From a virus, in the IMG/VR virus record IMGVR_UViG_3300046740_000639, positions 1 to 37,665 of that record: a stretch of DNA of 37,665 nt; one strand, written 5' to 3'. Shown here one piece after another: positions 2,169 to 27,179 of the stretch. Numbering within the stretch: the stretch's first letter is position 1; each line of letters opens with the position of its first letter. The notes beneath the pieces are model-generated. The model ran no database searches. It was not told the origin of the DNA and was given only the letters and a program-made list of their open reading frames with translations. The translations under genes and the position numbers were made by a program.

Positions 2169-4567
2169 CTATCCGCCAGAGATGACCTGAGCTTGGCACA
2201 AGGCCGTGCCGTCGATCACTTGATAGCCGTACACCTGCACGTTGTGTTTCACAACCAGTACACCCTGATTGATCGGTCGGCTCTTTATCCGACCACCTGC
2301 AACTTTCGCTGCAGACCAGACTATATCTTCCTGCTTGCACAGGCTCCGCGCTCGTGGGCCTTTCATCCGGTCTGGATTACTCGACCTAGTCGTTGGACCT
2401 TCTCCCTGTTCCCAGGGAGCTTGGCTGCTGATTGCCCAATCCGAAGTGTTTTCAAACCGTCGCATCTACCGTTACCAGTTATGCTGTGGTCACTTCGGCT
2501 CTCAGGGGTTCCCAGACAAATTCACGGAGTTTAACGAGAGCTAATTTTAACCCTCTGAGGATCTGGCCGAAGGTCAGCTCACTCCTCAACGTTTCCAATT
2601 TTGAAATCTGGCTTGCGAACGTAATCCCGTGCGCATGCCCAGCGAAGATCGGAAACTCGCCCGCTGCGAAGTTGGTTGAATCGCTCGTGTTGGTCGGCAG
2701 CAGGTTCGAGATATACAACGTGAATCGATCAATCATTCCGAGCCGGCCATTGCGCAGCATGGAGACCGGATCGCCCGACAGATAGGCCTGGCGCAGTTCC
2801 GACTGCTTGATCTGCCGCCCGGCCCACGCCGGCATCACCACCCAGCGGCCAATCTCCGGGATGTTCTGCTCGTCGAGGCACTCCCCCATGCGCAGAAGCA
2901 GATCGATCAGATTGGATTGACCGGCCGTCGCACCCTGCCCAACCACCGTGATCGGCGTGCCCTTGATCCCGAGGTTGAGATTGGCGTACTTCCCGGCCGT
3001 CGCGCCGCGGTTGGTCGCCGCGCATTGCCCGACGATGCCGTCGAGCACTTCCGTGTCGACCGCGATTTTGAGCTGCTGAGCTGCCCAACGAACGTTTACG
3101 CGTTCGTTCCGACTATCGCTTCAACCACTGGAGCTATTATCTGCTTACGCCTGTATCCGCGCGTAGGCCGCTTGAGCCTATGATAGCGCTCAAGCTGCCA
3201 GCAATTCTTGCATAAGCCTTTAGCGTAAGGCTTACCGCCGCACTGACAGAGAACGCCTTCCGCGTGCCTATAGCGAGATTGCGGATCAGGCACGTCGCGC
3301 ACCAACACAAGTTCAGCAGACACATCCACAGTAGCCGCTAGGTCATTTAGTCTGTGCGGGTGGGTCTTCATGGCCTTGAGCGTATCCTCGATCACCTCGC
3401 CATCGCGAAAATGTCCCATCTTCGCACAGCCAAGAATGAAGTACGCTTGTTCCCGTTTAACAGTCAGATGCTTCGCGATCGGATCAAAGAACTTGCGAAC
3501 CATTGCTGCGTCCGCTCGAAGTTCCCATCGCCAGCAATTACCTGTCGCACCTCGCTGTCGAATGGCTCCGCCAAATGCCTTTTGCACCAGGACGAGCCCA
3601 TCCTTTTCTAAACCATCGGAATCAATCGATAACTTGACGGTTGCTGTCCCACCATGCCGATTTGCATGAGCATAAACACAACCATCAGCATCGAAATATC
3701 CCGCCAGCCAGTTGCGAGACGGATAAACAGGAATGCTGTCCGTTCCAACCCGTTCGGTGAACCCAAGTTCACGCAGGATACGATTGGCACGAACACGCTT
3801 GGCCACAAGATACGGCTTCAGCCGGCACAGCAGATCAACCGCTTTCTGTCCGGTAAACCGCAAGCGAGAACCATGCGTAATGGTCCCGCGACGGCGCCCG
3901 GAACGGTTGTCCCGTGTTCCACCTGAAAACCGCTGAGTAAGGAGATCGATGACTCCGCTATTGGATTCCTTCTGATGGAAACCGAGTTCAAGCCGTTTTA
4001 CAGGAACTGGGTTAGTGGTCAGCCCAACGAAGAGCGAACCATCTCCATCAAGAAAACCAGCAGCGTATTTGTCACTCAGGATCAACTTACTATCCCTTCC
4101 CTCTGGTTGCCTTTTACAAGGTTCCCAGTTTTTTAGACCTAGTTTACCGACGACACAACGTCTTTATCGTCGCTCCATATAGACAGGACATTCAGATCGC
4201 TCTGCACCTCCATCACGTCGTCGAGGATCAGAGAGAAGTAAAAGCCGTTGCCGATGTAGAGTTCGACTGAGCCTCCAGTTGGTCGATCAAGACCGAGCAA
4301 ACCGTCGGCCTGATACTTGCGGATCGTGATCGTAGGCTTTGTGCGAATCTTGACCCTGTCGCCTTGGTTGGCGATTTCGCCTTCGTAGTCTGTGTTTGAT
4401 ATGGCCGACAAAACGGTCGACGCATAAAATTTCTCAACGAGTTTAGCACTCCAGATCTCGGGAATAAATCCGGTCGATTGGAGTAGGTTTCCGGTAGACC
4501 CTACGGGGGTCAGGGGCGGGACTGAGCCTGACGTTGCGCCAGGAAAACCCGCACTCGGGATAGGCAT
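2169..4567 (-). CDS. Major capsid (coat) protein, split by two group I introns
   Basis: Three exons on the minus strand: 4567-4166, 3084-2550 and 2239-2169. Joined, they give 335 aa in one frame. Exon 1 ends at IWSDD, exon 2 begins AAQQLKIAVDTEVLDG, and exon 2 joins exon 3 as RGLQVYGYQVIDG, restoring an uninterrupted coat-like sequence. Unspliced, exon 1 reads into stop codons after DVVSSVN. The start MPIPSAGF at 4567 has a GGAG site. The gene follows the scaffold-like gene, the usual head order. An HK97-type fold is inferred from the family, not seen. Splice sites were placed by P1 pairing, frame and a terminal intron G. Confidence 0.88.
2240..2549 (-). ncRNA. Group I intron without an ORF (coat intron 2)
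   Basis: 310 nt. The conserved core strings are present in RNA order. A Q-like GGCAATCAGCAGCC is at 2436-2423. An R-like string at 2399-2381 contains CAACGACTAG. An S-like AAGATATAGTCTGG is at 2329-2316. R and S can form P7 (GACUA with UAGUC). P1 is exon GAGGGU paired with the internal guide GCUCUC, with the obligatory U-G at the splice site. The last intron base is G at 2240. No protein is needed from within; any maturation or mobility would depend on neighbours. Confidence 0.9.
3085..4165 (-). ncRNA. Group I intron carrying a LAGLIDADG gene (coat intron 1)
   Basis: 1081 nt. P1 is a perfect 7-bp pairing of exon CGACGAU (4172-4166) with guide GUCGUCG (4154-4148), ending in the expected U-G pair. 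An S-like AAGCGATAGTC lies at 3121-3111. An 8-bp hairpin AACGAACG/CGTTCGTT lies just before the terminal G at 3085, in the P9 position. The endonuclease frame fills most of the intron, so part of the catalytic core must overlap coding sequence. A possible R-like CACAGACTAAATG is near 3350, but I could not fix P3, P4 and P6 by eye, so the subgroup is open. Confidence 0.85.
3096..4085 (-). CDS. LAGLIDADG homing endonuclease (intron-encoded)
   Basis: 329 aa with two LAGLIDADG-type helices: YAAGFLDGDGSLFVG at about residues 8-22 and WLAGYFDADGCVYAH at about 125-139. The acidic residue ending each motif is the metal-binding catalytic one, so this should act as a single-chain, two-repeat enzyme that cuts an intron-less coat allele. 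The C-terminal 45 residues have CQCGGKPYAKGLCKNC, a likely zinc knuckle. The frame stops 11 nt before the 3' splice site, so this tail overlaps ribozyme sequence. A maturase role is possible for the family but cannot be judged here. Confidence 0.93.
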   Translation of the reverse strand: MILSDKYAAGFLDGDGSLFVGLTTNPVPVKRLELGFHQKESNSGVIDLLTQRFSGGTRDNRSGRRRGTITHGSRLRFTGQKAVDLLCRLKPYLVAKRVRANRILRELGFTERVGTDSIPVYPSRNWLAGYFDADGCVYAHANRHGGTATVKLSIDSDGLEKDGLVLVQKAFGGAIRQRGATGNCWRWELRADAAMVRKFFDPIAKHLTVKREQAYFILGCAKMGHFRDGEVIEDTLKAMKTHPHRLNDLAATVDVSAELVLVRDVPDPQSRYRHAEGVLCQCGGKPYAKGLCKNCWQLERYHRLKRPTRGYRRKQIIAPVVEAIVGTNA

Positions 4568-17839: not shown

Positions 17840-18109
17840 ATGCGACCGCGCAAACGTCGGCCCCCCCGGCGGCCCGGCTACACGATCTCTCAGTTCGCCC
17901 GCGAGGTAGATCAGACGTCGAGCGGGATCCGCAACGCGGTCAGAAACGGCGAAATCCGCGCGGTTCCCTACAACAATGTTTTGGTTATCCCGCCGTCCGA
18001 GCTGGACCGTTATCTAGCGACGTGGGGCACAGCGGGCTCGAACGAACGCGTCGAGCCCGCGCCGGGGGATGAGCACCGCGACAAATGGCATCAACTATTC
18101 AGGTTGTGA
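17840..18109 (+). CDS. Small helix-turn-helix protein, 89 aa
   Basis: It starts after GAGGAGG. A very basic head (RPRKRRPPRRPG) leads into YTISQFAREVDQTSSGIRNAVRNGEIRAVPYNNVLVIPPSELDRYL, an excisionase/MerR-like helix-turn-helix with wing (about 14-58). It lies 30 nt after the terminase and 3 nt before the next DNA-binding gene. Possible roles are regulation of the late genes or a packaging accessory. Confidence 0.7.
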   Translation: MRPRKRRPPRRPGYTISQFAREVDQTSSGIRNAVRNGEIRAVPYNNVLVIPPSELDRYLATWGTAGSNERVEPAPGDEHRDKWHQLFRL

Positions 18110-18112
18110 CTA

Positions 18113-18883
18113 ATGAGCGATGCACAGCAAGGCGACGACCTAGTCCCGAACTTTCCGTTGTCGTGGCTGGAGCGGCTTGATTCCGAGAAGGTGCGGCTGG
18201 AGAACCGCAACGCCGACGTCTGGGTGCCGATCCTCGAGCGGGCCAAGGGGGTGGTCGATCATGACGGGATCGAGCGGGTCACGGCGCAGTCGTTGCTCGA
18301 CATCCTCAAGGTGCCGATGGGCAAGCGCAAGAACGAGCACTACCAGCGGCTGACCAAGATCATGATCGAGCTCGGGTGGTCGTCGCACCGCATCCACGGC
18401 ATAACGGCGGGCGGCTACCGCGAGCAGGTGCATGGCTTCTGCCGCGATGCCCGGCACAAGAAGCCGCCGACCGCCGACGAGAAAAGACGGGCCGAGCTGG
18501 GGGTGCGGCAGGTGCGGCGGCCGAAGATCGGCTGGCCGGCATTCAAGCGGCAAGTCGTGGAATTGGTCCGCTCCGGGAAGCATCCGGCCGAGCTTGCGGA
18601 TCAATTCGGGATACCGAAGCAGACGATCCGCAATTGGGTCGGCCGGCATAACGAACTTAACCCCGAGGCGCCGGTAGTCATACCGCAGCACAAGCGGGGG
18701 AGCCCGGTTCGCAATCCCAATCCGCTCAACATCCCGGTCACCCAGGTCACCCCGGTGGCCATGGCGCCAGCCGAGAAGCCGAGGCCGCAACTGCCACCCG
18801 AGCCAGCCGCGAAGCCCTCCAAGGCGGCTGTCGCTCCGTTCGAGCTGCCGGACATACCGGCATTCCTGCGCCGGGAGAAGTAA
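18113..18883 (+). CDS. DNA-binding protein with helix-turn-helix, 256 aa
   Basis: The N-terminal part has LDILKVPMGKRKNEHYQRLT and GWSSHRIHGITAGGYREQVH (about 62-108). This resembles the C-terminal DNA-recognition segments of phage replication proteins of the VapE/D5 type, where a domain reads the template. From about 142 to 176, FKRQVVELVRSGKHPAELAD and IPKQTIRNWVGRH form a transposase-like helix-turn-helix. The P/A/K-rich tail is disordered. It is likely a sequence-specific binding protein, and its role is undetermined. It ends 2 nt from the convergent minus-strand operon. Confidence 0.6.
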   Translation: MSDAQQGDDLVPNFPLSWLERLDSEKVRLENRNADVWVPILERAKGVVDHDGIERVTAQSLLDILKVPMGKRKNEHYQRLTKIMIELGWSSHRIHGITAGGYREQVHGFCRDARHKKPPTADEKRRAELGVRQVRRPKIGWPAFKRQVVELVRSGKHPAELADQFGIPKQTIRNWVGRHNELNPEAPVVIPQHKRGSPVRNPNPLNIPVTQVTPVAMAPAEKPRPQLPPEPAAKPSKAAVAPFELPDIPAFLRREK

Positions 18884-18885
18884 GT

Positions 18886-19248
18886 CTAGGGTGGGGATTT
18901 CTGCTCAAGGGTGTATTTTACGAAGCCCTTGATCACCGCCCACAGCTGCCTGATCTCGGCCTTCAACTCTTGTGCTTTGAACTCCGCATCGATAATGCGG
19001 TTTTCGGTCGCCTCTGTTTCTTTGCTATAGGTGGCCAAGTCGATCCGCAGCCGTTCGATCTCGGCCTCCAGCGCAGCAATATCACGCTCGTAAGCGGCAT
19101 TGCGCTCCTGCGAGTAGTGGAGCACGTCTTTGTCAGTCTTAAGCCGTTCGATCTCGGCCTCGCGGTTGCCGATCAGCGCGTGCAACAGCGCGTTGGCCTT
19201 CATCAGGTCATCGCGTTCGGCGCGCAGCCGCTCGATTTCGGCGGTCAT
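18886..19248 (-). CDS. Coiled-coil protein, 120 aa
   Basis: The chosen start MTAEIERLRAERDDLMK at 19248 overlaps the upstream stop as ATGA; the frame is open further to 19323. Almost the whole protein is heptad-repeat coiled coil with recurring AEIERLR blocks, which suggests internal duplication. It is the last gene of the long minus-strand early operon. The function is unknown. Confidence 0.6.
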   Translation of the reverse strand: MTAEIERLRAERDDLMKANALLHALIGNREAEIERLKTDKDVLHYSQERNAAYERDIAALEAEIERLRIDLATYSKETEATENRIIDAEFKAQELKAEIRQLWAVIKGFVKYTLEQKSPP

Positions 19249-19469
19249 TTGATCGAGGTTCTTCGCGATGACGCGATCATGCAGCCGACAAATGCAATCG
19301 GTGCAATAACGGGCCATGCCCACAGCAAGAGCGGCGACAAGAGCAGCAGAAGCACGGTGAGAACTGCATACAGATTGGTGCGGTTGCGTTCATGCTCTTC
19401 TGCCGCATACGCTTGCGAGAGCTCTAATTCAAAGAGTTCAACTTCCGAGAGGTCGTCCTCGTATTTCAT
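19245..19469 (-). CDS. Two-span membrane protein, 74 aa
   Basis: MKYEDDLSEVELFELELSQA begins an acidic helical head. Two adjoining hydrophobic stretches follow, LYAVLTVLLLLLSPLLLW and VIAPIAFVGCMIAS, then a basic end. The start at 19469 is supported by the 3-nt gap to the preceding stop codon. It sits in a run of small membrane and coiled-coil genes. A host-membrane role such as exclusion is possible but only inferred. Confidence 0.55.
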   Translation of the reverse strand: MKYEDDLSEVELFELELSQAYAAEEHERNRTNLYAVLTVLLLLLSPLLLWAWPVIAPIAFVGCMIASSRRTSIK

Positions 19470-19474
19470 TTCGG

Positions 19475-19705
19475 TCACCCAAACAGTTTTACGATTGTGG
19501 CGCCGAGCGCGACGCCGGCCGCCAACAGCGCGGCGCCTGCGGTCATGCCGGCAAATGCGGGGACATAGTCCCGAACTTGCCACGGCGCATGGCGCATTTC
19601 CTGGTGTCGGCGATCCGATTCGGCAAAGTTGCGATGGATCTCCGTCAGCATCTTGTCGATGCGAACGGTCTGCTCGCGCGCGTCAATTGGATCGATGTCT
19701 GGCAT
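19475..19705 (-). CDS. Tail-anchored membrane protein, 76 aa
   Basis: A charged helical N-terminus (MPDIDPIDAREQTVRIDKML) is followed by one C-terminal transmembrane segment (about 50-74, FAGMTAGAALLAAGVALGAT) ending LFG. The layout is that of a tail-anchored protein with a cytosolic coiled coil. Its neighbour at 19724 has the same plan. The function is unknown. Confidence 0.6.
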   Translation of the reverse strand: MPDIDPIDAREQTVRIDKMLTEIHRNFAESDRRHQEMRHAPWQVRDYVPAFAGMTAGAALLAAGVALGATIVKLFG

Positions 19706-19723
19706 TTGGTCCTCTGGGCACTT

Positions 19724-19924
19724 TCAAGCAAACATCTTGAACAGGATTGCGCTTGTCATCGCCATGTTGGTGCCGACCATCCATTTCAAGACCGTCAGAT
19801 CAGTTTCGATCTTGCCGGCCCGGTTTTCATAGCCGGCGGCCTCTTCGGCAGCGGCGCGCGCTATCTCGTCCGGCACGTTGCCGGCCCGCAATGCAGCGTA
19901 GAGCTTTGCCATCATGACGGTCAT
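19724..19924 (-). CDS. Helical protein with C-terminal hydrophobic segment, 66 aa
   Basis: The likely start is MTVMMAKLYAALRAG at 19924; ATGs at 19915 and 19912 are alternatives, and the frame is open to 19990. The helical region IARAAAEEAAGYENRAGKIE precedes a weakly hydrophobic end (WMVGTNMAMTSAILFKMFA). The plan recalls small CCDC90/DUF1640-like anchored coiled coils in bacteria and phages. The function is unknown. Confidence 0.55.
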   Translation of the reverse strand: MTVMMAKLYAALRAGNVPDEIARAAAEEAAGYENRAGKIETDLTVLKWMVGTNMAMTSAILFKMFA

Positions 19925-19990
19925 TCGAGTTAGTGCTCCTTGGCGTTTCGTGCCGCGCACCCCGGAGGATGCGCGGAGGCGAAACGTCAA

Positions 19991-20110
19991 TCAGCGGCAG
20001 ATTTGCTGCCAGCCATTGCCGTTCCATTCCCAGCGGCAATCGGCGTGCGCCGGCGCCGTAGCCGCAGCAAGACCAGCAACAATCGACAGCACGGTAAGGA
20101 TAGTTCTCAT
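19991..20110 (-). CDS. Secreted mini-peptide precursor, 39 aa
   Basis: The start at 20110 follows the recurring leader site AGCGAGGACGAAACC. Residues 1-23 are a textbook signal peptide (MRTILTVLSIVAGLAA, then APAHA). Cleavage would leave the 16-residue DCRWEWNGNGWQQICR with one cysteine near each end, which could form a disulfide loop. The open frame extends to 20185, but that part is ribozyme and leader sequence. The role is unknown; the gene sits just downstream of hammerhead copy 1. Confidence 0.6.
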   Translation of the reverse strand: MRTILTVLSIVAGLAAATAPAHADCRWEWNGNGWQQICR

Positions 20111-20129
20111 GGTTTCGTCCTCGCTTGTG

Positions 20130-20147
20130 CGCCGCGCCAATGCGGCG
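20130..20147 (-). repeat. Leader hairpin 1 (UUGGC-type loop)
   Basis: The RNA CGCCGC-AUUGGC-GCGGCG lies 6 nt before AGCGAGGACGA and the start of the 39-aa gene. It is one member of the recurring leader-hairpin set at 20.1-23.6 kb. Confidence 0.65.
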
Positions 20148-20165
20148 TTCGTTAGAGTCGGAACT

Positions 20166-20228
20166 GGACTCGTCAGGCACCGCATTCACGGTGCGACCGG
20201 CAAGGCCTAGTAGCCGCCGGTTTCGTCC
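20166..20228 (-). ncRNA. Type II hammerhead ribozyme, copy 1
   Basis: The RNA starts one base after the upstream TGA. Stem II is GGAC with GUCC, open at the ends. The core GAA is present. Stem III is ACCGGC with GCCGGU, plus an inner GGC/GCC. C17 is at 20195. Stem I is GCACCG with CGGUGC, closed by UGAAUG. The core CUGACGA is complete. Self-cleavage is expected between 20195 and 20194. All invariant bases of the hammerhead core are present. Confidence 0.9.
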
Positions 20229-20229
20229 T

Positions 20230-20466
20230 TCAAGGCGCCGTCGCCGTCTCCAAGCGCGCGAGCCGGTTGTCCAGGCGGCCCAGCATGTCCTTCATCTGCA
20301 CCATGTCGCGGGCGAGCCGCAACACCATCTCGGTCAGCACCGTCTGTCCATAGGAAAGCTCGCGCACATTGTGTTCGATGCTGTCCATCCGTTTTTCAAT
20401 GTCGTCGAATCGCCTATCCACACGCGCAAATCGTTCGCGCAAGAAGTCCAGGACATCATCAGTCAT
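20230..20466 (-). CDS. Coiled-coil protein, 78 aa
   Basis: MTDDVLDFLRERFARVDRRF starts at 20466, just after the recurring leader AGCGAGGACGATAAAACA; the open extension to 20550 is leader RNA. Heptads run through most of the protein (RRFDDIEKRMDSIEHNVREL, MLGRLDNRLARLE). It resembles small trimeric or tetrameric coiled-coil phage proteins. The function is unknown. Its stop codon abuts hammerhead copy 1. Confidence 0.65.
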   Translation of the reverse strand: MTDDVLDFLRERFARVDRRFDDIEKRMDSIEHNVRELSYGQTVLTEMVLRLARDMVQMKDMLGRLDNRLARLETATAP

Positions 20467-20490
20467 TGTTTTATCGTCCTCGCTTGTTGC

Positions 20491-20511
20491 GGGCGCCCGC
20501 CAAGGCCGCCC
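20491..20511 (-). repeat. Leader hairpin 2 (UUGGCG loop)
   Basis: The RNA stem GGGC/GCCC plus GCC/GGC, with one bulged G and the loop UUGGCG, lies before AGCGAGGACGA and the 78-aa coiled-coil gene. Confidence 0.6.
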
Positions 20512-20561
20512 CGGTTCCGGTAATATTGCGCACAGCGCCATATGGCGCAAGAGCGGCGGCC

Positions 20562-20678
20562 TCTGTTAATGTTTAATCATTCCGTCCGCCGGGCCGGCTG
20601 CTTCGGTCCTCGCGGCAGCCTAGCCCGCGGAAGGATAGGGCCGGCCGGGACGCCAATCCCGCCGGCCCGCCCCGCCGT
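20562..20678 (-). pseudogene. Remnant of a lost gene cassette
   Basis: The interval after the stop at 20679 holds a leader-type hairpin with UUGGCG loop (20668-20638; 12 bp with one bulged C) and a ribosome-site-like GCGAGGACCGAAG. What follows has no gene, only ATG ATT AAA CAT TAA. This looks like a cassette leader that kept its RNA signals but lost its coding part. No hammerhead core is present here. Confidence 0.45.
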
Positions 20679-20993
20679 TTACCAGACTTGCCACCAATTT
20701 TTGTCGGATACGGGTGGCTTCAGGCAATCCGCTATTGATGGCTTGGCAACGCGCTCGACGTAATCGGCCGGAAGTTTTCCGTTTGCGATGAAGTATGTGC
20801 CGTCCTCCATCGTGCTCCGGTTGGCGGCGGCGAGGACGTAACAACTGCAATAAGCGTTGTTGTTGTTCATTCCCGCCAGACAAGTTGCCATTGCCTCCTT
20901 TATAAAGGCGAGCGTGTTCGCCTGGTCCAGCGGGGTCGCATGCGCCGCAACAGGCAACAGCAGCGTGCTTGCAAGCAATAATCGTTTCATCAT
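20679..20993 (-). CDS. Exported cysteine-containing protein, 104 aa
   Basis: A signal peptide (MMKRLLLASTLLLPVAAHAT, cleavage about residue 19) precedes a mature part with four cysteines (CLAG, CSCY, DCLKPP), likely paired in the periplasm, and a Trp-rich end NWWQVW. The start at 20993 or 20990 follows AGCAAGGACCAACGAAC, a variant of the shared leader. The sequence resembles small Rap1a/Tai-like or other periplasmic proteins only in outline; function unknown. Confidence 0.7.
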   Translation of the reverse strand: MMKRLLLASTLLLPVAAHATPLDQANTLAFIKEAMATCLAGMNNNNAYCSCYVLAAANRSTMEDGTYFIANGKLPADYVERVAKPSIADCLKPPVSDKNWWQVW

Positions 20994-21014
20994 GTTCGTT
21001 GGTCCTTGCTATGT

Positions 21015-21029
21015 GCCGCGCCATGCGGC
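21015..21029 (-). repeat. Leader hairpin 3 (AUGGC loop)
   Basis: The RNA GCCGC-AUGGC-GCGGC precedes AGCAAGGACCAACG and the exported cysteine protein. Confidence 0.6.
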
Positions 21030-21042
21030 GGTTGGGTCTACT

Positions 21043-21099
21043 GGACTCATCAGCTGCCGCGTCACGGCAGGACGGGGAGATCAGTTCCCCGTTTCGTCC
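21043..21099 (-). ncRNA. Type II hammerhead ribozyme, copy 2
   Basis: Stem II is GGAC with GUCC. Stem III is ACGGGGA with UCCCCGU. C17 is at 21071. Stem I is CUGCCG with CGGCAG, closed by UGACG. The core is CUGAUGA, the exact consensus. Cleavage is expected between 21071 and 21070. The 5' half overlaps the last six codons (KDETGN) and stop of the upstream gene; the stop codon lies in the stem III loop. Confidence 0.93.
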
Positions 21100-21266
21100 T
21101 TGTGGTCGCGAGCCTCCAGCCAGGCCCGCTCGAGCCGCGCGATCATGACAGCGGCGCGGTGGCATAGGTCGGCGGTGGTGGAAGAGCGTCCCGGGTGCGC
21201 CTCGGTCAGCTCGCGCGAGATGGCCTCAACCTCGGCCTGCGTCGGTGGGCCTTGATCTGTTTTCAT
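21081..21266 (-). CDS. Small helical protein, 61 aa
   Basis: The start MKTDQGPPTQAEVEAISREL at 21266 overlaps the upstream stop as ATGA; the longer frame to 21317 is not needed. It is predicted helical (AAVMIARLERAWLEARDHK). Its C-terminal codons and stop are part of hammerhead copy 2, so translation termination and ribozyme folding compete for the same RNA. The function is unknown. Confidence 0.65.
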   Translation of the reverse strand: MKTDQGPPTQAEVEAISRELTEAHPGRSSTTADLCHRAAVMIARLERAWLEARDHKDETGN

Positions 21267-21466
21267 GATCGCACCGCCATCAACAGCACAAGCGGCCCGG
21301 CGCCACCGCCAACCCAATAGCGGCCGGCCTTGGTCAACTCAGAAAGAGCATGGAAGTATTCAGGGTCACGATGCTCTGCAGCGTCTGGGAAGCAGTCGCG
21401 CAAATCACATTGACCGCGCAATGTTTCGTTGTCGTTGTTGTCGTAATCGTAAATCTTTACCATCAT
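21263..21466 (-). CDS. Small protein of unknown function, 67 aa
   Basis: MMVKIYDYDNNDNETLRGQC starts in an ATGA overlap with the previous stop and ends in another. An acidic N-terminus is followed by CFPDAAEHRDPEYFHALSEL and a hydrophobic end (GPLVLLMAVRS). The family is not recognised. Confidence 0.6.
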   Translation of the reverse strand: MMVKIYDYDNNDNETLRGQCDLRDCFPDAAEHRDPEYFHALSELTKAGRYWVGGGAGPLVLLMAVRS

Positions 21467-21690
21467 GACACACCTCCCGGCGTCACCACGCGCACAAGCT
21501 CGCGGCTGTTGGCGCCGGCAACCGTAAAATTGCGGATGACGTACAGCGGCGAGTAGGGGTTGAGATTGAATATCAGTAGCGTCTTGCCGGTGCGGTCCGC
21601 GTCTTGCTGCGCCAGCGCAATGATTCGATCGAGCTTGGTTACTTTGTCGTGCGCGCGGTCTATGTGCTTCAATTCAGATTTGCTAGGCAT
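21463..21690 (-). CDS. Small protein of unknown function, 75 aa
   Basis: MPSKSELKHIDRAHDKVTKL at 21690 follows the shared site GCGAGGACGAGGACA; the frame is open to 21720 without support. A helical N-terminal half is followed by strands (TLLIFNLNPYSPLYVIRNFT). It lies directly downstream of hammerhead copy 3. This leader lacks the usual UUGGCG hairpin. Confidence 0.65.
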   Translation of the reverse strand: MPSKSELKHIDRAHDKVTKLDRIIALAQQDADRTGKTLLIFNLNPYSPLYVIRNFTVAGANSRELVRVVTPGGVS

Positions 21691-21722
21691 TGTCCTCGTC
21701 CTCGCATTGAGCTGGGTCATCT

Positions 21723-21782
21723 GGACTCGTCAGGCGCCGCATCACGGCGCGACCGGGCACAACAAAGTGCCCGGTTTCGTCC
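21723..21782 (-). ncRNA. Type II hammerhead ribozyme, copy 3
   Basis: The RNA begins immediately after the upstream TAA. Stem II is GGAC with GUCC. Stem III is ACCGGGCAC with GUGCCCGGU and loop UUUGUU. C17 is at 21751. Stem I is GCGCCG with CGGCGC, closed by UGAUG. The core CUGACGA is complete. Cleavage is expected between 21751 and 21750. Stems I and III are perfectly paired and differ in sequence from copies 1, 2 and 4. Confidence 0.93.
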
Positions 21783-22244
21783 TTATGCCGCCGATCGACC
21801 GCGATCTATCCCCCAGGGCGCGGTCTCGTAATCGGGCAAGCCGCGGATTGCCGCCGCGCGGATTGCCGCAATTATCCGGTGCGCGACCGTCTGCCTATAA
21901 TCGTCGGTCTCGCAAGCCTGATAGTCGAAGCAATCGCAATTCTTGATTACCCAAACGCAGCGCTTCGTGTGCTGCATGTGGACGAACGGCTCGAAATACC
22001 GGAACGCATAGGCGCTCGCGTCCTCACCGATCTTGCCCGGCATGTTGCCAGGCCCACAATCCGGGTAACGATGGCAGACCGAGCGCTCGTTCTCCGCTAG
22101 TAGAACGCGGCCGATGTCGGTCCAATCAAACAATCCAGCCTTGCTAGGCTGGATAAAATAGCCGAGCTGGTCTTTCATCCGCTTGTCCTTAGCAAACGAA
22201 AGCAGCGCGTCGATATGGTCGTGGGAGACTACGAAAGCAGACAT
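21783..22244 (-). CDS. Phage protein of unknown function, 153 aa
   Basis: MSAFVVSHDHIDALLSFAKD starts after AGCGAGGACGAAGAACC. It contains several cysteines (CHRYPDCG, CDCFDYQACE) and a helical end, TVAHRIIAAIRAAAIRGLP. The segment CFDYQACETDDYRQTVAHRI could bind metal. It is the largest but one of the cassette genes. No family was recognised with certainty. Confidence 0.7.
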   Translation of the reverse strand: MSAFVVSHDHIDALLSFAKDKRMKDQLGYFIQPSKAGLFDWTDIGRVLLAENERSVCHRYPDCGPGNMPGKIGEDASAYAFRYFEPFVHMQHTKRCVWVIKNCDCFDYQACETDDYRQTVAHRIIAAIRAAAIRGLPDYETAPWGIDRGRSAA

Positions 22245-22267
22245 GGTTCTTCGTCCTCGCTGTGTTT

Positions 22268-22285
22268 CCCTCTCGCCAAAGAGGG
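22268..22285 (-). repeat. Leader hairpin 4 (UUGGCG loop)
   Basis: The RNA CCCUCU-UUGGCG-AGAGGG, a perfect 6-bp stem, lies before AGCGAGGACGA and the 153-aa gene. Confidence 0.7.
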
Positions 22286-22345
22286 CCGGCTTGATTGCCG
22301 CCGATAGGCGCCCGCAATGGAGCGCCCATCAACTGCAATCACGCC
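22286..22345 (-). ncRNA. Structured intergenic RNA element, copy A
   Basis: It begins directly after the upstream TAA. P1a is GGC/GCC. P1 is UGAUUGC (22341-22335) with GCAAUCA (22298-22292). P2 is GAUGGGCGC with GCGCCUAUC (9 bp, one G-U), closed by the loop UCCAUUGCGG. An internal loop AGUU/GGCG separates P1 and P2. Copy B at 22917-22973 has the same plan with different, still paired stems. It is not a hammerhead; no known class is recognised. Confidence 0.7.
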
Positions 22346-22873
22346 TTACGCTACCTGCCGTGCTTCGCTGGCATCGCGCGCATAGCTCTCAGCATTTGGA
22401 ACCCCGCGACACATGCGAGCGGAATTGGCCGGCGTGATCGATATATCCAGTTCCCAGCGCGCAATGACCTTGCCCTCGCGCCGAACGTCCAAGTAGAGCG
22501 CATCGGCATGTAACCCGCCCATCGCGACATATCCGTTCGTGTGGGCGTCCGGATAAAATCGGAATGTGATCTCGTCATCGGCGCGCAATGTCTTGAGGAT
22601 GCACGACGCGCTAGTATGCTGCGAGTGATAGACACCGATCATCGCAAAGCATTGCACGTCGCCGGCTTTCATCGCTTCGCGCCCGCGCGAGGTATCAATC
22701 TCCACCTTAGCCGTGACATTGTGCTCTATGTCCGTCGCAAACGGATCGGGGTTGCCATAACCCTTGCGCTTGATCGCGCGCACCAGGCCGTCCGGGCTCT
22801 TGCTGTTCAGATGCACGCAAATGTCGTCGCACTTGCGCAATGCAGTAATGTCGAGCTTCGTTAAGGTAGTCAT
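22346..22873 (-). CDS. Phage protein of unknown function, 175 aa
   Basis: MTTLTKLDITALRKCDDICV starts at 22873 after AGCGAGGACGAACG; the open extension to 22969 is leader RNA. It appears to be a beta-rich globular protein (DEITFRFYPDAHTNGYV, ADALYLDVRREGKVIARWEL) with a helical N-terminus. It has no membrane or signal segments. The family is not recognised. Confidence 0.7.
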   Translation of the reverse strand: MTTLTKLDITALRKCDDICVHLNSKSPDGLVRAIKRKGYGNPDPFATDIEHNVTAKVEIDTSRGREAMKAGDVQCFAMIGVYHSQHTSASCILKTLRADDEITFRFYPDAHTNGYVAMGGLHADALYLDVRREGKVIARWELDISITPANSARMCRGVPNAESYARDASEARQVA

Positions 22874-22896
22874 CGTTCGTCCTCGCTTATGTTGTT

Positions 22897-22916
22897 GGAC
22901 ATCCGCCAAGATGTCC
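22897..22916 (-). repeat. Leader hairpin 5 (UUGGCG loop)
   Basis: The RNA GGACAUC-UUGGCG-GAUGUCC, a perfect 7-bp stem, lies before AGCGAGGACGA and the 175-aa gene. Confidence 0.7.
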
Positions 22917-22973
22917 CGGCATGATCGCCGACCATGCCGCCCCCATGGAGCGGCATGCGCTGCAATCAATCCG
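22917..22973 (-). ncRNA. Structured intergenic RNA element, copy B
   Basis: It begins directly after the upstream TAA. P1a is CGG/CCG. P1 is UGAUUGC with GCGAUCA (one U-G where copy A has U-A). P2 is CAUGCCGC with GCGGCAUG, closed by UCCAUGGGG. The internal loop is AGCG/GUCG. The loop start UCCAU, the P1 5' strand and the 3' GCCGG are shared with copy A while P2 has changed on both sides. That is the mark of a conserved fold. Confidence 0.7.
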
Positions 22974-23138
22974 TTATTTGAAATCCGCCATAATTGCGGT
23001 AATGGCGTCGTTTATTCGATACATAAGAGCCGATAATTTTTCGTCTTTTGGCAATAGCGGCAGCCATTCAAATGCCGCTATGACAGCATGTGTTGCATCG
23101 TCGCAAGCATCATCAAATTTGTCTTCTTGATTAATCAT
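22974..23138 (-). CDS. Small acidic protein, 54 aa
   Basis: MINQEDKFDDACDDATHAVI starts at 23138 after AGCGAGGACGAAGACT; the longer frame to 23168 is leader. It is acidic and helical with a Trp and a short hydrophobic end (INDAITAIMADFK). It is a small acidic cassette gene of unknown function; proteins of this type sometimes act as inhibitors or DNA mimics, which is speculation here. Confidence 0.6.
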   Translation of the reverse strand: MINQEDKFDDACDDATHAVIAAFEWLPLLPKDEKLSALMYRINDAITAIMADFK

Positions 23139-23162
23139 AGTCTTCGTCCTCGCTATGTTGTC

Positions 23163-23182
23163 GGACACTCGCCAAAGCGCCC
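23163..23182 (-). repeat. Leader hairpin 6 (UUGGCG loop)
   Basis: The RNA GGGCGCU-UUGGCG-AGUGUCC, seven pairs with two G-U, lies before AGCGAGGACGA and the 54-aa gene. Confidence 0.65.
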
Positions 23183-23196
23183 TGGTTCGTTCGTCT

Positions 23197-23248
23197 GGTC
23201 TCGTCAGTGACGGCCTAACCGCCAGACGGCCCTGGGGCCGTTTCGACC
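23197..23248 (-). ncRNA. Type II hammerhead ribozyme, copy 4
   Basis: Stem II here is GGUC with GACC, a two-sided change from GGAC/GUCC in the other copies. Stem III is ACGGCC with GGCCGU and a short CCAG loop. C17 is at 23225. Stem I is UGGCGG with CCGUCA (one G-U), closed by UUAGG. The core CUGACGA and GAA are intact. Cleavage is expected between 23225 and 23224. The RNA begins three bases after the upstream TGA. Confidence 0.9.
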
Positions 23249-23251
23249 TGT

Positions 23252-23440
23252 TCAGTAGTTGGTGACCCAGTCGCAGCCGTGAAGCTTGGCGAGCACCTCT
23301 GCGCGACGCTCCGCTTTGACCCTGCGGCCTTTGCCAGAGAAATGGCTGTCCGCTTCCAAGCTGTCATCCTCGAAGAGGACATCAACCGTGAAATCATCGC
23401 CATTGTCAGAACATTGAATGGTGCGGGCCTTGCTGATCAT
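23252..23440 (-). CDS. Small protein of unknown function, 62 aa
   Basis: MISKARTIQCSDNGDDFTVD starts at 23440 after GAGGTGCAATC, with its ATG overlapping the upstream TGA; the frame is open to 23509. An acidic middle (VLFEDDSLEADSHF) is followed by a basic helix (GRRVKAERRAEVLAKLH). It ends just upstream of hammerhead copy 4. Confidence 0.6.
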   Translation of the reverse strand: MISKARTIQCSDNGDDFTVDVLFEDDSLEADSHFSGKGRRVKAERRAEVLAKLHGCDWVTNY

Positions 23441-23607
23441 GATTGCACCTCGCAAGCGCATGCGAGAGTGTAGAGCAAACCCTTGCTGCAGTAGTTGACG
23501 AGAAACCATTGCTCGGCATCAAAGCTCGATGAGCATCCTCGCGGTGCCAGCATGTAACCTTCATGGTAGTCCCGGCCGTGGTAACAAAAAGCTATCCTAA
23601 AGCGCAT
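23437..23607 (-). CDS. Small cysteine-rich protein, 56 aa
   Basis: MRFRIAFCYHGRDYHEGYML starts at 23607 after AGCGAGGATCAGGACA, a variant of the shared leader. It has five cysteines (C8, C25, C40, C50, C52) and ends LYTLACACEVQS. Its stop overlaps the next ATG as ATGA. The gene was found by reading the gap between neighbours; leader and coupling make it credible. The function is unknown. Confidence 0.6.
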   Translation of the reverse strand: MRFRIAFCYHGRDYHEGYMLAPRGCSSSFDAEQWFLVNYCSKGLLYTLACACEVQS

Positions 23608-23627
23608 TGTCCTGATCCTCGCTTTGC

Positions 23628-23644
23628 GCCCGAGCCATTCGGGC
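23628..23644 (-). repeat. Leader hairpin 7 (AUGGC loop)
   Basis: The RNA GCCCGA-AUGGC-UCGGGC, extended by UUGC/GCAA across an AA bulge, lies before AGCGAGGAUCA and the 56-aa gene. Confidence 0.6.
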
Positions 23645-23701
23645 TTGCAATCAACAATCTATCAAACAAACACAAATGCACAACCGTAAAGATTGGCACA
23701 T

Positions 23702-23714
23702 ATCCGCACATTTC
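23702..23714. repeat. 13-bp direct repeat, copy 1 (3' side of HNH gene)
   Basis: ATCCGCACATTTC on the plus strand begins this pair; an identical copy is at 24137-24149. Together they closely bracket the HNH gene (23716-24105), lying 1 and 31 nt from its ends. Confidence 0.6.
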
Positions 23715-23715
23715 G

Positions 23716-24105
23716 TCATTTTGGACGCGCTGCGAATTTGCCACTCGCGCGGGGCTGCCCAATGTAGCCATGAGCGGATTTATTCACACAGTTCTGTGAA
23801 TGATTACACTCTCGTAGGTTACTCCATCGATTGTCATCACGAATCCGGTTGATGTGATCTAGTTCAGGATCAGGGTCGCGCCCGGTTACCATTTTCCAGA
23901 TGATGCGATGTACGCGATATTCCTCATATTCAATTGTAACGCTGCGATAGCCCCAACGCTTGCTACGCCACCCAGCTTCCATGCCAGGCCGAATGCGAGG
24001 CCCGCGGATTCTCCAGGTGAGCAAGCCGGTTTCCTTGTCATAGTCGAATAGAATTCGCAGCAAGGAAGCCGGCGGCAAAGGAAGCATCTTCCCATTCCAT
24101 GTCAT
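23716..24105 (-). CDS. HNH endonuclease, possibly with truncated AP2 tail
   Basis: The start at 24105 (MTWNGKMLPLPPASLL) is chosen because the conserved part begins here; the frame is open to 24438. ILFDYDKETGLLTWRI, the basic middle and YRVHRIIWKMVTGRDP lead to the HNH core ELDHINRIRDDNRWSNLREC, with the metal-binding His of DH and Asn of RWSNLRE. It then reaches HGYIGQPRASGKFAARPK and stops. In relatives an AP2 DNA-binding domain usually continues, so this copy looks shortened. It is a free-standing homing-type nuclease within the small-gene operon. Confidence 0.85.
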   Translation of the reverse strand: MTWNGKMLPLPPASLLRILFDYDKETGLLTWRIRGPRIRPGMEAGWRSKRWGYRSVTIEYEEYRVHRIIWKMVTGRDPDPELDHINRIRDDNRWSNLRECNHSQNCVNKSAHGYIGQPRASGKFAARPK

Positions 24106-24136
24106 GATCAGATTATATCCCAGATTAACCGGAAAG

Positions 24137-24149
24137 ATCCGCACATTTC
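24137..24149. repeat. 13-bp direct repeat, copy 2 (5' side of HNH gene)
   Basis: ATCCGCACATTTC is identical to 23702-23714. A partial third repeat (CCGCACA) follows at once. Confidence 0.6.
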
Positions 24150-24434
24150 CGCACACGAACAAGAAAGATTGTTGCGTAGGGCCGCTCTCGATTTGTGCCA
24201 TCGCGCCGGCGGGCCGGGAAAAGTCCGTGGTTCCGGGTGGGCTACGGAGGAGGGATTTGCTTAATATGAGCAAAAGTCCGTTCCGCCTTGGCGAAGGACA
24301 ATCCGCGCGGTGCGCACTGCACGCGTGAGGGCCGCGAGCACCTAAGCCGCTGATATCATTACGTTGTGGTAGTGGGGTGCGCTGGGATCGAGGTTTGGAG
24401 TATGGTTCCGGACCGTCTACGACTGCGGCGAGGT
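24150..24434. other. Non-coding gap upstream of the HNH gene
   Basis: Between the HNH start and the next gene stop (24106-24434) no gene with clear support is seen. It holds a -10-like TATAAT read on the minus strand at about 24119-24114, without a good -35. There is also a 20-codon plus-strand frame at 24266-24328 behind a GGAGGAGGG. The HNH reading frame is open through here but has no matching start. Confidence 0.4.
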
Positions 24435-24764
24435 TCAATCTCCCCCGTCTTTAACAGGAGTTTTTCGGATGAATGCTCCGGGGGCTACTTCCTTGCCCCG
24501 GGCGCCGTGAAATGGATTTGTCCCCATCCTATACGGCCATAACGGGCAGTGGACAGCCGTGCAGCGCCGGACCTCGGATTGCTGGTAGCAGCAGCAGTCT
24601 AGGCATTTCGCCCGGATAACTGCCATGATCGAGCGTTTTTGATGCGCTTGCCCTAGGACTTCAAGCGCCAGGTCGTCCGGATGCCGGCCTTCCGTCGAGC
24701 CGTCCGAATGCCGGACGATGAAGGCTTCTGATAACGAATTCGGTCCAATATCATCGATGGGCAT
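24435..24764 (-). CDS. Cysteine-motif phage protein, 109 aa
   Basis: MPIDDIGPNSLSEAFIVRHS starts after GGAGGTCACC at 24764; the longer frame to 24980 is not supported. The core MAVIRAKCLDCCCYQQSEVR and CTAVHCPLWPYRMGTNPF has CxxCC and CxxxxC groups with the CPLWPYRMG string seen in many small proteins of alphaproteobacterial prophages. It probably binds zinc. The N-terminal part refers to a separate region, HPDDLALEVLGQAHQKR. Function unknown. Confidence 0.7.
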   Translation of the reverse strand: MPIDDIGPNSLSEAFIVRHSDGSTEGRHPDDLALEVLGQAHQKRSIMAVIRAKCLDCCCYQQSEVRRCTAVHCPLWPYRMGTNPFHGARGKEVAPGAFIRKTPVKDGGD

Positions 24765-25079
24765 GGTGACCTCCAATCCAGGTTGCTTTGCCAAGTGGCC
24801 GGGCGGCGCCTTCAACGCCGCTCGGCTGCGCCTATGGTAGCACAGCTCGCGCCAACGAACATCCTCGCACCCCCACGCGCAATTTTGTTGCGGAGAGCTG
24901 CGCTTTCCTTCCAGCTCGATCCCGATCGCCGCCGCCCCGGTACACCCCCCGCCGCCCCGGGGGGACGCTGGCCAGGCCACCCCCCTCGATCGTCTATCTC
25001 AGTGCCCTTTTCATATCTGGCCCCCGAAAACCCTTATGCTGCACTGCACAAAATACAACTGGATTGGTTGGGGCGCTTG

Positions 25080-25213
25080 CGCGGTTATTTTCCTCGTATT
25101 CCCCCTGGCACGGCCCGCCGCACTTTTTTCGCCTTAGTGAAACGGCGGCGGAAAAATGCGGCGCCGCCTTTTCGCCGATTTTCCCGTAGGGGAATACGAG
25201 GAAAAAAAGCGCG
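25080..25213. repeat. Long inverted repeat in the gap next to the helicase gene
   Basis: The arms TTTTCCTCGTATTCCCC (25088-25104) and GGGGAATACGAGGAAAA (25189-25205) match over 17 bp. They extend outward with two mismatches to about 25 bp. Inside, GGCGGCG and CGCCGCC form a second stem with A/T runs. The gap 24765-25446 contains no convincing gene. Cruciform-forming structure beside a RepA-like helicase fits an origin or a strong RNA stem, but neither is shown. Confidence 0.6.
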
Positions 25214-25387
25214 GGTGTTTCGCCGCCGAATTTGGCCCCACCCGCTATTTGACCGCCGATTTCAAAATCAAAACTACGGCGGTGTTTTTGCCCACAACTG
25301 AAGAATGCATTTTCACCTCGATCGGTTGCAATCCGGTGACCTCGGGTGGGATCCTGTCGAACATTTCGTGCATAAAAAATGGAGAGC

Positions 25388-25439
25388 GGAGCGTAATGGA
25401 GCGTAATGGAGCATAATTAATTGCGCTCCATTATGCTCC
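25388..25439. repeat. Iteron-like cluster of GGAGCRTAAT units
   Basis: There are three direct 10-bp units (25388, 25398, 25408: GGAGCGTAAT twice, GGAGCATAAT once) and two inverted ones (TTGCGCTCC at 25421, ATTATGCTCC at 25430). In the minus-strand RNA they form a 15-bp stem with one mismatch, right after the helicase stop codon. They could be origin iterons, an operator, or a 3' RNA stem. Confidence 0.6.
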
Positions 25440-25446
25440 GGGGTTG

Positions 25447-26970
25447 TCATACGCCCACCTCGATCAGGTCGCCCGGCCTCGCCTTGACGTGTAGGCCGAC
25501 GCGCCGCTTTTTTGCTGACTTGACGTAGGTATCCGCCTCCTCCAGCACGCCGTTCTTGATCCATTTGTCGAGGATCTTGCGGCCATCCTGTTCGGAGCAT
25601 TGCAGGTATTGCTGCAGCACCGGGACCGCCCAACGCTTGGTCTTGCGCAGCGTGAAGGGCTCGCCGGTCGACCCGCCATCGTCGTCTTTGCCGCCGGCCT
25701 CGAGCTCGTCGAGGATGGCCTTGGCCACGTCGGTGGTCATGGCGTCGAAGATGTTGGGGGGCAGGAATGGCACCAGCACGCCGACCTCGTCGGCCGGCTC
25801 GCCATCGCCGGCATTGTTGAGGGTGCGGGACTGTTTCTGGAACCAGCGGGCGGCCGCGCTCATCAGGCTGAGATTGGCCTTGGCGTCGTCGAAGCGCAGG
25901 TAGTGATTGTGGGTGTCGGGATCGATCTCGAAGGCGGTCGCCTCCTCGCGTGTCATCGGGAACAGCGTGGCGACGATGCGCGCCACCCCGGCCAGGGAAC
26001 CGCCGCCGCGGCTGGCGTCGGGATCGCCGGCCATGTTCTGCGCGTATTTCTTGGTGTGGTGGACCAGCATCACGGCCGCGTTGGTGCGCCGCGCCACCTC
26101 CCGCCACAGCACTGCCGCCCACTTCAATTCGGAATTGGAGTTCTCGTCGCCGGCGAACGTCTCCGCAAACGGGTCGACCACCACGATGTCGATCTGCAGG
26201 GTCATCAGCGCGCGCACGACCCGCTCCAGCATCGGTGTCGCGGTGACGGTCTTGGTGCGGCTGTCGGCGATGGCGACCACGATCGACGCCGCCTTCGCCA
26301 GCACCACACGGCCCTGCAAATCCACCTGGTCCAACCCCATCACCTCCGCCGCGGCGCACAGCCGCCGGCTCATTTCCTCCGCGTCCTCCTCGACATTGAT
26401 GATCAGCACCCGGTAGCGGCCGCGCGGCCGCCAGCCCGCCCAGCTGGTCATTCCGGACACGCACAGCATCGCCAGTTGCAGCGTCAGCAGGCTCTTGCCG
26501 CTGCCCGGCGGCGCCACCATCAGGGTGACCTGGCGCCGCAGCAGCAGGCCCGGCACCAGCCACGGCCGCCGCGGCAGCTTCGTGCCGTCGATCGGAAACG
26601 GGAACACCACCGGCAGATCGGTCGCCACCGGCCCGTTGGGCTTGTGGGCGGGGCCGGCCGGGCCATTGCTCCCCGCGGCGGGTCCGTTGGGTGGCATCCC
26701 GGGCGGCCGCGGGACCTCGGCGAAGGCGGCCGCGATCCGGGTCTGCAGCCCGTCCTCGCCCAACGCAGCGACCAGCCCGTGGGCCTGCGCCATCTCGTAG
26801 AGGGCATCGATTGCGGTGGCCATGGGGAGCCCGCCCGCGACGTAGCCGGCGGCATCCTTGGCGGCCTCGTCGAACGCCTTGGCGCAGGCCTCGATGTCGC
26901 CCTCGCCCAGGCTGGCCAGCACCGCCCGCCAGTTCGCCAAGCCTTCCCGGAAGCGGTCCTCGATGGTCAT
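25447..26970 (-). CDS. RepA-like replicative helicase (AAA/RecA fold)
   Basis: 507 aa. The N-terminal helical domain (about 1-90) is joined by a P/G/N-rich linker (91-120) to a RecA-type ATPase with Walker A APPGSGKS (153-160), the INVEEDAEEM segment and Walker B DIVVVDPF (about 270). It continues with VMLVHHTKK and SRGGGSLAGVARIV motifs typical of RSF1010 RepA/DnaB-like hexameric helicases. The C-terminal winged-helix-like part has VLQQYLQCSEQDGRKILDKW. It should unwind phage DNA at the fork. Its start overlaps the 70-aa gene by ATGA. Confidence 0.85.
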   Translation of the reverse strand: MTIEDRFREGLANWRAVLASLGEGDIEACAKAFDEAAKDAAGYVAGGLPMATAIDALYEMAQAHGLVAALGEDGLQTRIAAAFAEVPRPPGMPPNGPAAGSNGPAGPAHKPNGPVATDLPVVFPFPIDGTKLPRRPWLVPGLLLRRQVTLMVAPPGSGKSLLTLQLAMLCVSGMTSWAGWRPRGRYRVLIINVEEDAEEMSRRLCAAAEVMGLDQVDLQGRVVLAKAASIVVAIADSRTKTVTATPMLERVVRALMTLQIDIVVVDPFAETFAGDENSNSELKWAAVLWREVARRTNAAVMLVHHTKKYAQNMAGDPDASRGGGSLAGVARIVATLFPMTREEATAFEIDPDTHNHYLRFDDAKANLSLMSAAARWFQKQSRTLNNAGDGEPADEVGVLVPFLPPNIFDAMTTDVAKAILDELEAGGKDDDGGSTGEPFTLRKTKRWAVPVLQQYLQCSEQDGRKILDKWIKNGVLEEADTYVKSAKKRRVGLHVKARPGDLIEVGV

Positions 26971-27179
26971 ACGGGGAAATACCTAGCGAACGGATTGCAG
27001 ATGATGGCCTCGCAGGCCGAGATGCCCAGCAGGTCGATGAGCCCGGCCTTGAACGCGTATTGCAGCAGCGGATCGGTCGCCGCGCCGTAGTCGAATTCAT
27101 TGCAGCCGTAGAGCAGGGCGCGCGCTTCCGCCCGCGCGCGCAGGACCAGGATCGGTGCCACTTTTTGCCGGCCCGACAT
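26967..27179 (-). CDS. Small protein of unknown function, 70 aa
   Basis: MSGRQKVAPILVLRARAEAR starts at 27179 and its stop overlaps the helicase start as ATGA. It is mainly helical (ARALLYGCNEFDYGAATDPL, LIDLLGISACEAIICNPF). Coupling to the helicase suggests a role in replication, perhaps a loader or regulator. The family is not recognised. Confidence 0.65.
   Translation of the reverse strand: MSGRQKVAPILVLRARAEARALLYGCNEFDYGAATDPLLQYAFKAGLIDLLGISACEAIICNPFARYFPV

Follow-up and report, generated by a model that had tools for sequence, protein, structure and literature searches.

The window analysed here is the whole of IMG/VR virus record IMGVR_UViG_3300046740_000639, 37,665 nucleotides (nt) long, with genes for a portal, a terminase, a tail fibre, a helicase, an MT-A70 methyltransferase and a YqaJ/RecE-like protein. 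Among the small genes lying between the helicase gene (25447–26970) and the convergent terminase genes, the minus strand carries four elements, designated D (23197–23248), B (21723–21782), C (21043–21099) and A (20166–20228), which by sequence and structure are type II hammerhead ribozymes and are predicted to cleave themselves after H17. All four follow the order GGAC–GAAA–stem III–UC–stem I–CUGANGA–GUCC, with GGUC and GACC in place of GGAC and GUCC in D. The catalytic core (CUGANGA, GAAA and UH at the cut site) is present in 4/4 copies, and three helices are formed, stem II being open and stems I and III closed. Copy D combines stem II GGUC/GACC with stem III CGGCC/GGCCG and stem I UGGCGG/CCGUCA, and its predicted cut falls at 23225/23224; copy B combines stem II GGAC/GUCC with an 8-base-pair (bp) stem III and stem I GCGCCG/CGGCGC (cut 21751/21750), and GGAC/GUCC recurs in C (cut 21071/21070) and A (cut 20195/20194). 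When each of the four RNAs is folded alone, the minimum-energy structure is the hammerhead. The elements, their permutation, stems and core order, and the split of stem II into three GGAC/GUCC copies and one GGUC/GACC copy are thus as an original prediction, made from the letters of the window, had described them, and its four cut sites match the sequence anatomy exactly.

A structure-aware scan of both window strands found no further complete type II copy beyond these four. The same four emerge from R1, a covariance model built independently from 47 hammerheads of loci without any 40-mer in common with the window or with loci L125–L231, at E-values (E) of 1.7e-18 for D, 4.8e-17 for B, 9.5e-18 for C and 1.8e-14 for A, the next best match standing at 0.41. 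In the Rfam search that the original prediction had proposed, D matches RF02276 at 35.4 bits, below the gathering score of 37, and the other three copies go unmatched at E<=10 even in a search of 3.6 kilobases (kb).

The elements are closely apposed to the ends of the upstream reading frames. Copy D begins 3 nt past the stop of a frame of 62 amino acids (aa; 23252–23440), B lies 0 nt from the TAA (21785–21783) of a 153-aa frame (21783–22244), and A lies 1 nt past the TGA (20232–20230) of a 78-aa frame (20230–20466), so that a start at or within 3 nt of a stop, which had been claimed for every copy, holds for these three. It fails for C at 21099, since the upstream 61-aa frame (21266–21081) passes through GGACGAAAC of this copy, whose 5' half doubles as coding sequence for the final residues KDETGN, and ends at a TGA (21083–21081) within loop III. 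At all four elements, C included, the upstream frame ends before the cut. The notion of a regular series has to be given up, as element starts are unevenly spaced by 1466, 683 and 871 nt.

The frames around the ribozymes are small and mostly without a family match; they were called by a simple script of our own rather than by a standard gene finder. For the 62-aa frame that precedes D, of unknown function, neither Pfam nor PADLOC gives a match. The first frame past D (54 aa, 22974–23138) has none in PADLOC, and between D and B there follows a 175-aa frame (22346–22873) without family that recurs in L141, L147 and L149. The 153-aa frame directly ahead of B matches, weakly, one PHROG of unknown function. 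Past B come frames of 75 aa (21463–21690) and 67 aa (21263–21466), the latter with 4-nt overlaps with its neighbours, and then the 61-aa frame (21081–21266) that ends within C. A 104-aa frame (20679–20993) is the first past C, the 78-aa frame directly ahead of A has weak coiled-coil-like matches, and a 39-aa frame (19991–20110) is the first past A. A defence-gene check of ten small frames of the region returned a single weak CorA-like match, and a nucleotide search of window positions 18000–27000 against phages returned none. Shared strand and tight packing suggest that the genes form one operon. Elsewhere in the window, a group I intron (2297–2614, minus strand, Rfam 57.8 bits) seems to split a gene that by eye is capsid-like, and is accompanied by homing endonuclease-like genes at 1229–2065 and 3096–4085.

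Relatives were drawn by the proteins of the region, giving 17 helicase loci, 11 loci of the 153-aa gene and the best 80 of 113 portal loci. R1 yields 34 matches at E<=0.01 in 14 of the 33 loci searched, 28 of them distinct. In the alignment of these 28 family copies, fitted to the R1 model, 420/420 cells are paired, 11 of 15 pairs show two-sided changes, and covariation amounts to 0.596 against 0.160 after shuffling; GAAA and CUGANGA are intact in 26 of the 28. Ten ribozyme-bearing gene maps could be compared, namely that of L125 (identical to the window here) and those of nine relatives. The first ribozyme carries GGUC/GACC in 10/10 maps, and the gene content between ribozymes differs among them. 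A called gene end lies -1 to 3 nt from the ribozyme in 19 of 26 cases, the remaining 7 including copies of the C type, which overlap a frame, and cases where the simple gene caller failed to call a gene. The frame overlapping C is itself kept in L132 and L135, with TAA replacing TGA, and its KDETGN end also occurs in L131, so that the core of C is simultaneously coding in a kept frame. Ribozymes with paired, covarying stems thus persist while the intervening genes change. A variant copy in L140 has U at H17, and L152 possesses the 153-aa gene and no hammerhead. Among named phages the closest portals (58% identical) belong to Rhizobium phage RHph_TM27A and three near-identical phages; RHph_TM27A was considered as a cultured relative with an array, and neither scanner nor model finds a hammerhead in it. 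The leaders of genes on the minus strand of the window and in L125–L149 share a different feature, a hairpin of variable stem and fixed UUGGCG loop just ahead of GCGAGGAC and the start codon, with loops near 23175, 22909 and 22279 in the window. Over the ten family loci, UUGGCG occurs within 32 nt upstream of GAGGA-N4-12-ATG at 33 of 75 sites on the operon strand, compared with 0/32 on the other.

The four elements exemplify a wider subclass. A scanner run over 125 loci, comprising the window, overlapping cuts of it and pattern-selected contigs, gave 226 matches (overlapping window cuts being recounted) against 0 in reversed sequences. Stem II is GGAC/GUCC in 176 of the 226 copies, a pair that the collecting pattern itself required. 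In the window and in most copies from other phages, a 4-bp stem II and a 6-bp stem I are accompanied by a variable stem III; the stem I loop tends to UNANG (among 156 copies whose stem I segment is 17 nt long, U in 152, A in 119 and G in 116), and an A precedes GGAC in 203 of 220 copies. Covariation counts in the A1 set are partly by construction, as the scanner that chose it requires stems. Less biased support comes from the family counts above and from bare pattern matches, which have both stems in 151 of 159 cases against 167 of 3340 with shuffled spacers. At least 120 stretches of viral DNA contain this short pattern, and the standard Rfam model misses much of the simple subclass it detects: in 14 loci, Rfam gives 2 matches at the gathering score, the scanner 52, and R1, whose training included some copies from six of these loci, 59 at E<=0.01. 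Wherever a locus holds at least two distinct copies, all lie on one strand (49/49, two of these being window cuts). Several one-strand copies between co-directed phage genes are also what the window displays, and the array is therefore a new instance of a published kind, the clustered phage hammerheads, in keeping with the placement of type II hammerheads between phage genes in the original prediction.

Several counts given above and below need to be read with the sampling in mind. Copies of one phage family are not independent and all p-values are nominal, some counts include two window copies twice through the overlapping cuts, and counts outside the family omit L103 and L123 but retain L079, L106 and L112, which share family DNA. 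A pseudoknot between loop I and the tail was considered as a general tertiary contact and is not supported, being possible in 12.5% of 343 copies and in 13.5% after shuffling; some individual copies whose loops are large nevertheless look like pseudoknots, and in A a pairing GAAU/GUUC can be drawn by eye. A scan for types I and III in all loci then collected gave 6 candidates, none in the window or L125–L231, a number that does not measure frequency, since most other loci had been chosen by the type II pattern. One type III candidate, near position 1731 of L255 (Microvirga lupini), shares its locus with a type II copy, and the two R1 matches of that genome lie 1 kb apart. In L237 and L239, labelled Phycicoccus jejuensis and Streptomyces iakyrus, three copies are identical together with the 10 nt before and the 45 nt after them, either through a shared phage or through a contaminated assembly.

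The apposition of stop codon and stem II extends well beyond the window. With a stop counted as abutting when the longest upstream frame ends -8 to +1 nt from stem II, 143 of 212 copies of a first set have one, as do 102 of 2120 random places (8 of 220 copies near locus ends were dropped); in a wider set the figures are 147 of 235 and 92 of 2350 (9 edge copies dropped), and without the family 125 of 207, three related loci still being counted. In the rest of the 235, the longest frame stops farther upstream in 45, inside the element before the cut in 9 and beyond the cut in 31, and 3 have none. The commonest stops are a TAG sharing the first G of GGAC (46) and a TAA directly ahead of it (35). 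In loci fetched later by the pattern TAGGAC (88 distinct copies, less 3 at edges and 2 stemless), no open frame exceeds the TAG frame in length in 57 of 83 (nominal p 5e-11). From stop to stem III the distance is 5–15 nt, and 6–10 nt in 145 of 168 copies. A downstream start with a Shine-Dalgarno sequence follows GUCC at a median of 26 nt (208 found, 26 not). The upstream gap is independent of the downstream gap (rho -0.08, p 0.25, 195 copies), which speaks against plain compaction. The presence of GGAC in leaders of the window had suggested that the freed GUCC strand might sequester Shine-Dalgarno sequences; this was rejected, as outside the family 19 of the 174 copies of GGAC type have GGAC in their 45-nt tail, compared with 28.5 expected from shuffles.

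In other phages a further element accompanies some copies. Within 14 nt past stem II, 46 of 344 distinct copies, at 38 loci, carry the complement of their own CUGAN, compared with a mean of 3.4 and a maximum of 10 in 500 rounds of shuffled tails; 0/46 of these anti-core tails belong to the window or L125–L231. Copies tailed with AUCAG or GUCAG occur in L006, L010, L013, L015, L026, L074, L086, L270, L280 and others, and AUCAG is the most enriched tail word besides Shine-Dalgarno-like ones (39 against 6.0). Across the 54 copies with NUCAG, position 7 covaries with the base it faces: U7–A in 35, C7–G in 11, U7–G in 4 and other combinations in 4 (Fisher 3e-7 for U/C by A/G). In minimum-energy folds of uncut RNA with a 14-nt tail, the tail pairs with the core in 46/46 copies and stem II is formed in 0/46, whereas copies of the untailed type keep stem II in 193 of 298. 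With the tail removed, stem II is formed in 45 of the 46 and in 291 of the 298 others. The tail–core pairing is likewise predicted in 46/46 downstream products. These folding models make it possible that the tail is a latch, which, forming in uncut RNA and in products alike, would either shorten the time available to the ribozyme or lock the product. No mention of such a tail was found in the part of the hammerhead literature that was consulted. The weld of stop to stem II, the gap in Rfam and the anti-core tail are the parts that a specialist may not expect.

The reading that we consider probable is that hammerheads punctuate a long phage message into shorter messenger RNAs (mRNAs). It builds on what is observed here of sequence, structure, covariation, position and conservation under gene turnover. 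The cutting at these four sites that we infer, its timing and its effect on mRNA stability would proceed as follows. The four cis-acting type II elements would serve as punctuation among small accessory genes downstream of the helicase and methyltransferase genes, each folding behind the passing RNA polymerase and cutting after the UC that follows stem III. Each cut would fall past the upstream stop and ahead of the Shine-Dalgarno sequence of the downstream gene, leaving every frame intact. With stems I and III both closed as hairpins, hairpin III, carrying a 2',3'-cyclic phosphate, would form the end of the upstream message, and hairpin I, with a 5'-OH, the start of the downstream one, an arrangement of hairpins at both new ends that by topology type II alone, among the three classic permutations, would provide. 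The outcome would be shorter mRNAs with separate lifetimes. Dedicated mRNA processing, as the original prediction had it, is consistent with the anatomy: the copies lie on one strand, between stop and start, with frames ending before the cut, and are kept despite gene turnover.

Several observations weigh against this reading, among them the folding of the elements in context and the core-changed orthologues. In equilibrium folding with 50–150 nt of flank, the flanking sequence competes with stem II, which almost always disappears (probability of its inner pair 0.00–0.23 in 12/12 contexts). Little of the fold of copy D survives (stem III 0.12–0.17, stem I 0.05), and in B, C and A the values for stems III and I vary between 0.03 and 0.99 depending on context. 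Two of the 28 distinct family copies, both at orthologous sites, have altered cores, GAGA in L149:2781–2841 and CCGAUGA in L147:4627–4680, so that cleavage is dispensable at some sites at least, and copies decayed worse than these would escape R1. Elsewhere, 31 of 235 copies have a longest open frame that runs beyond the cut, 14 of them with an abutting frame as well. Array size varies as well: any ribozyme is found in 15 of 79 portal-relative loci, many of which do not cover the region.

The same facts can be read in other ways. If cutting were regulated, the terminating ribosome, and in some phages the anti-core tail, would decide whether the element folds, and cleavage would report on translation or on the speed of transcription. 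The TAG and TAA stops fused to or directly ahead of stem II, the predominance of the TAG frame in the loci fetched by TAGGAC, the narrow range of distances from stop to stem III, the independence of the two gaps, which compaction would not lead one to expect, and the loss of stem II from tailed folds all favour such control. However, close packing alone could put a ribozyme directly past a stop, occlusion by the ribosome is deduced from footprint sizes, the stop lies farther upstream in 45 of the 235 copies, and the window and L125–L231 hold none of the 46 tails; regulated cutting is on this evidence unlikely. Cutting might instead lower expression, exposed ends decaying so that distal accessory genes are tuned down. 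As might suit this proposal, the genes that would be affected are small and most have no family match, and RNA ends with 5'-OH and cyclic phosphate are unusual. Both new ends would nevertheless be hairpins, with predicted energies of -10.7 to -18.4 kcal/mol for stem III and -7.9 to -11.5 kcal/mol for stem I, and terminal hairpins usually protect RNA, so we regard lowered expression as improbable.

Two further proposals turn on the array as a whole. The persistence of a ribozyme while its flanking genes change could mean that the elements sit at the borders between modules and are retained as anchors for the recombination that exchanges genes. The compensated stem changes point to selection on structure and weaken the ribozymes as homology blocks, and leaders free of ribozymes are also common to the relatives, all of which renders the anchors very improbable. 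Alternatively, the ends of an excised unit (stem I–CUGANGA–GUCC at the 5' side, GGAC–GAAA–stem III at the 3' side) might together restore a hammerhead and be ligated, giving a circular mRNA. B, C and A have halves that fit one another (GUCC/GGAC), and stem II is identical in 45 of 100 neighbouring pairs, but the unit from D to B is incompatible (GACC and GGAC). Outside the family, moreover, 42 of 86 neighbours share stem II where 39.7 are expected from a random draw within multi-copy loci, a result that also led us to reject selection for either compatible or orthogonal neighbours. Spliced or circular products went undetected according to the part of PMC3088659 available, and we think it very unlikely that circles account for the array.

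Returning to punctuation as the preferred reading, a gated form of it may be sketched, tentatively and as something we would on balance not expect. The 5' strand of the hammerhead (GGACGAAA), fused to the stop, would be covered by the terminating ribosome, coupling folding and cutting to termination, and in about 13% of copies, all in other phages, the AUCAG or GUCAG latch would act as an off-lock or as a product lock. If true, this would be a natural layer of control on hammerheads. The geometry is in any case testable: predicted cuts lie after an abutting stop and ahead of the following Shine-Dalgarno sequence, both new ends would be hairpins, the core-changed orthologues in L149 and L147 are natural mutants at two orthologous sites and useful as negatives, and other phages offer a covarying anti-core tail.

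Comparison with known systems places the array within an established kind. In mitochondria, a long transcript is punctuated by tRNAs, being cut into messages at intergenic RNA elements; protein enzymes perform those cuts at the tRNAs, whereas here the element would cut itself. With Rfam RF02276 (Hammerhead_II) the elements share core and permutation, as the score of copy D reflects, and differ from it in that three of four window copies are not recognised. The array's own kind is that of the clustered hammerheads of types I–III, type II included, that flank prophage genes and were described in 2011 (Perreault et al., PMC3088659, available in part). Its main text never uses the phrase 'stop codon' (0 occurrences), and no literature search was directed at stop codons. 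In that paper, potential loop I–tail pseudoknots of at least 4 pairs are described for most type II motifs, such pseudoknots being noted in about 40% of all hammerheads, whereas the copies here mostly have a UNANG pentaloop and no excess of pairing over shuffles. As far as the available part of the paper goes, its arrays resemble the present one in core, in type II permutation, in having several copies that flank single genes or short blocks, and in the role proposed, for mRNA processing had already been suggested there. It further reports that three tandem arrays, whose types are not specified in that part, cut during in vitro transcription, and that the Agrobacterium array cuts in E. coli. 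By analogy with these other prophage arrays, dedicated mRNA processing in the window would be consistent both with the 2011 proposal and with the cleavage data behind it.

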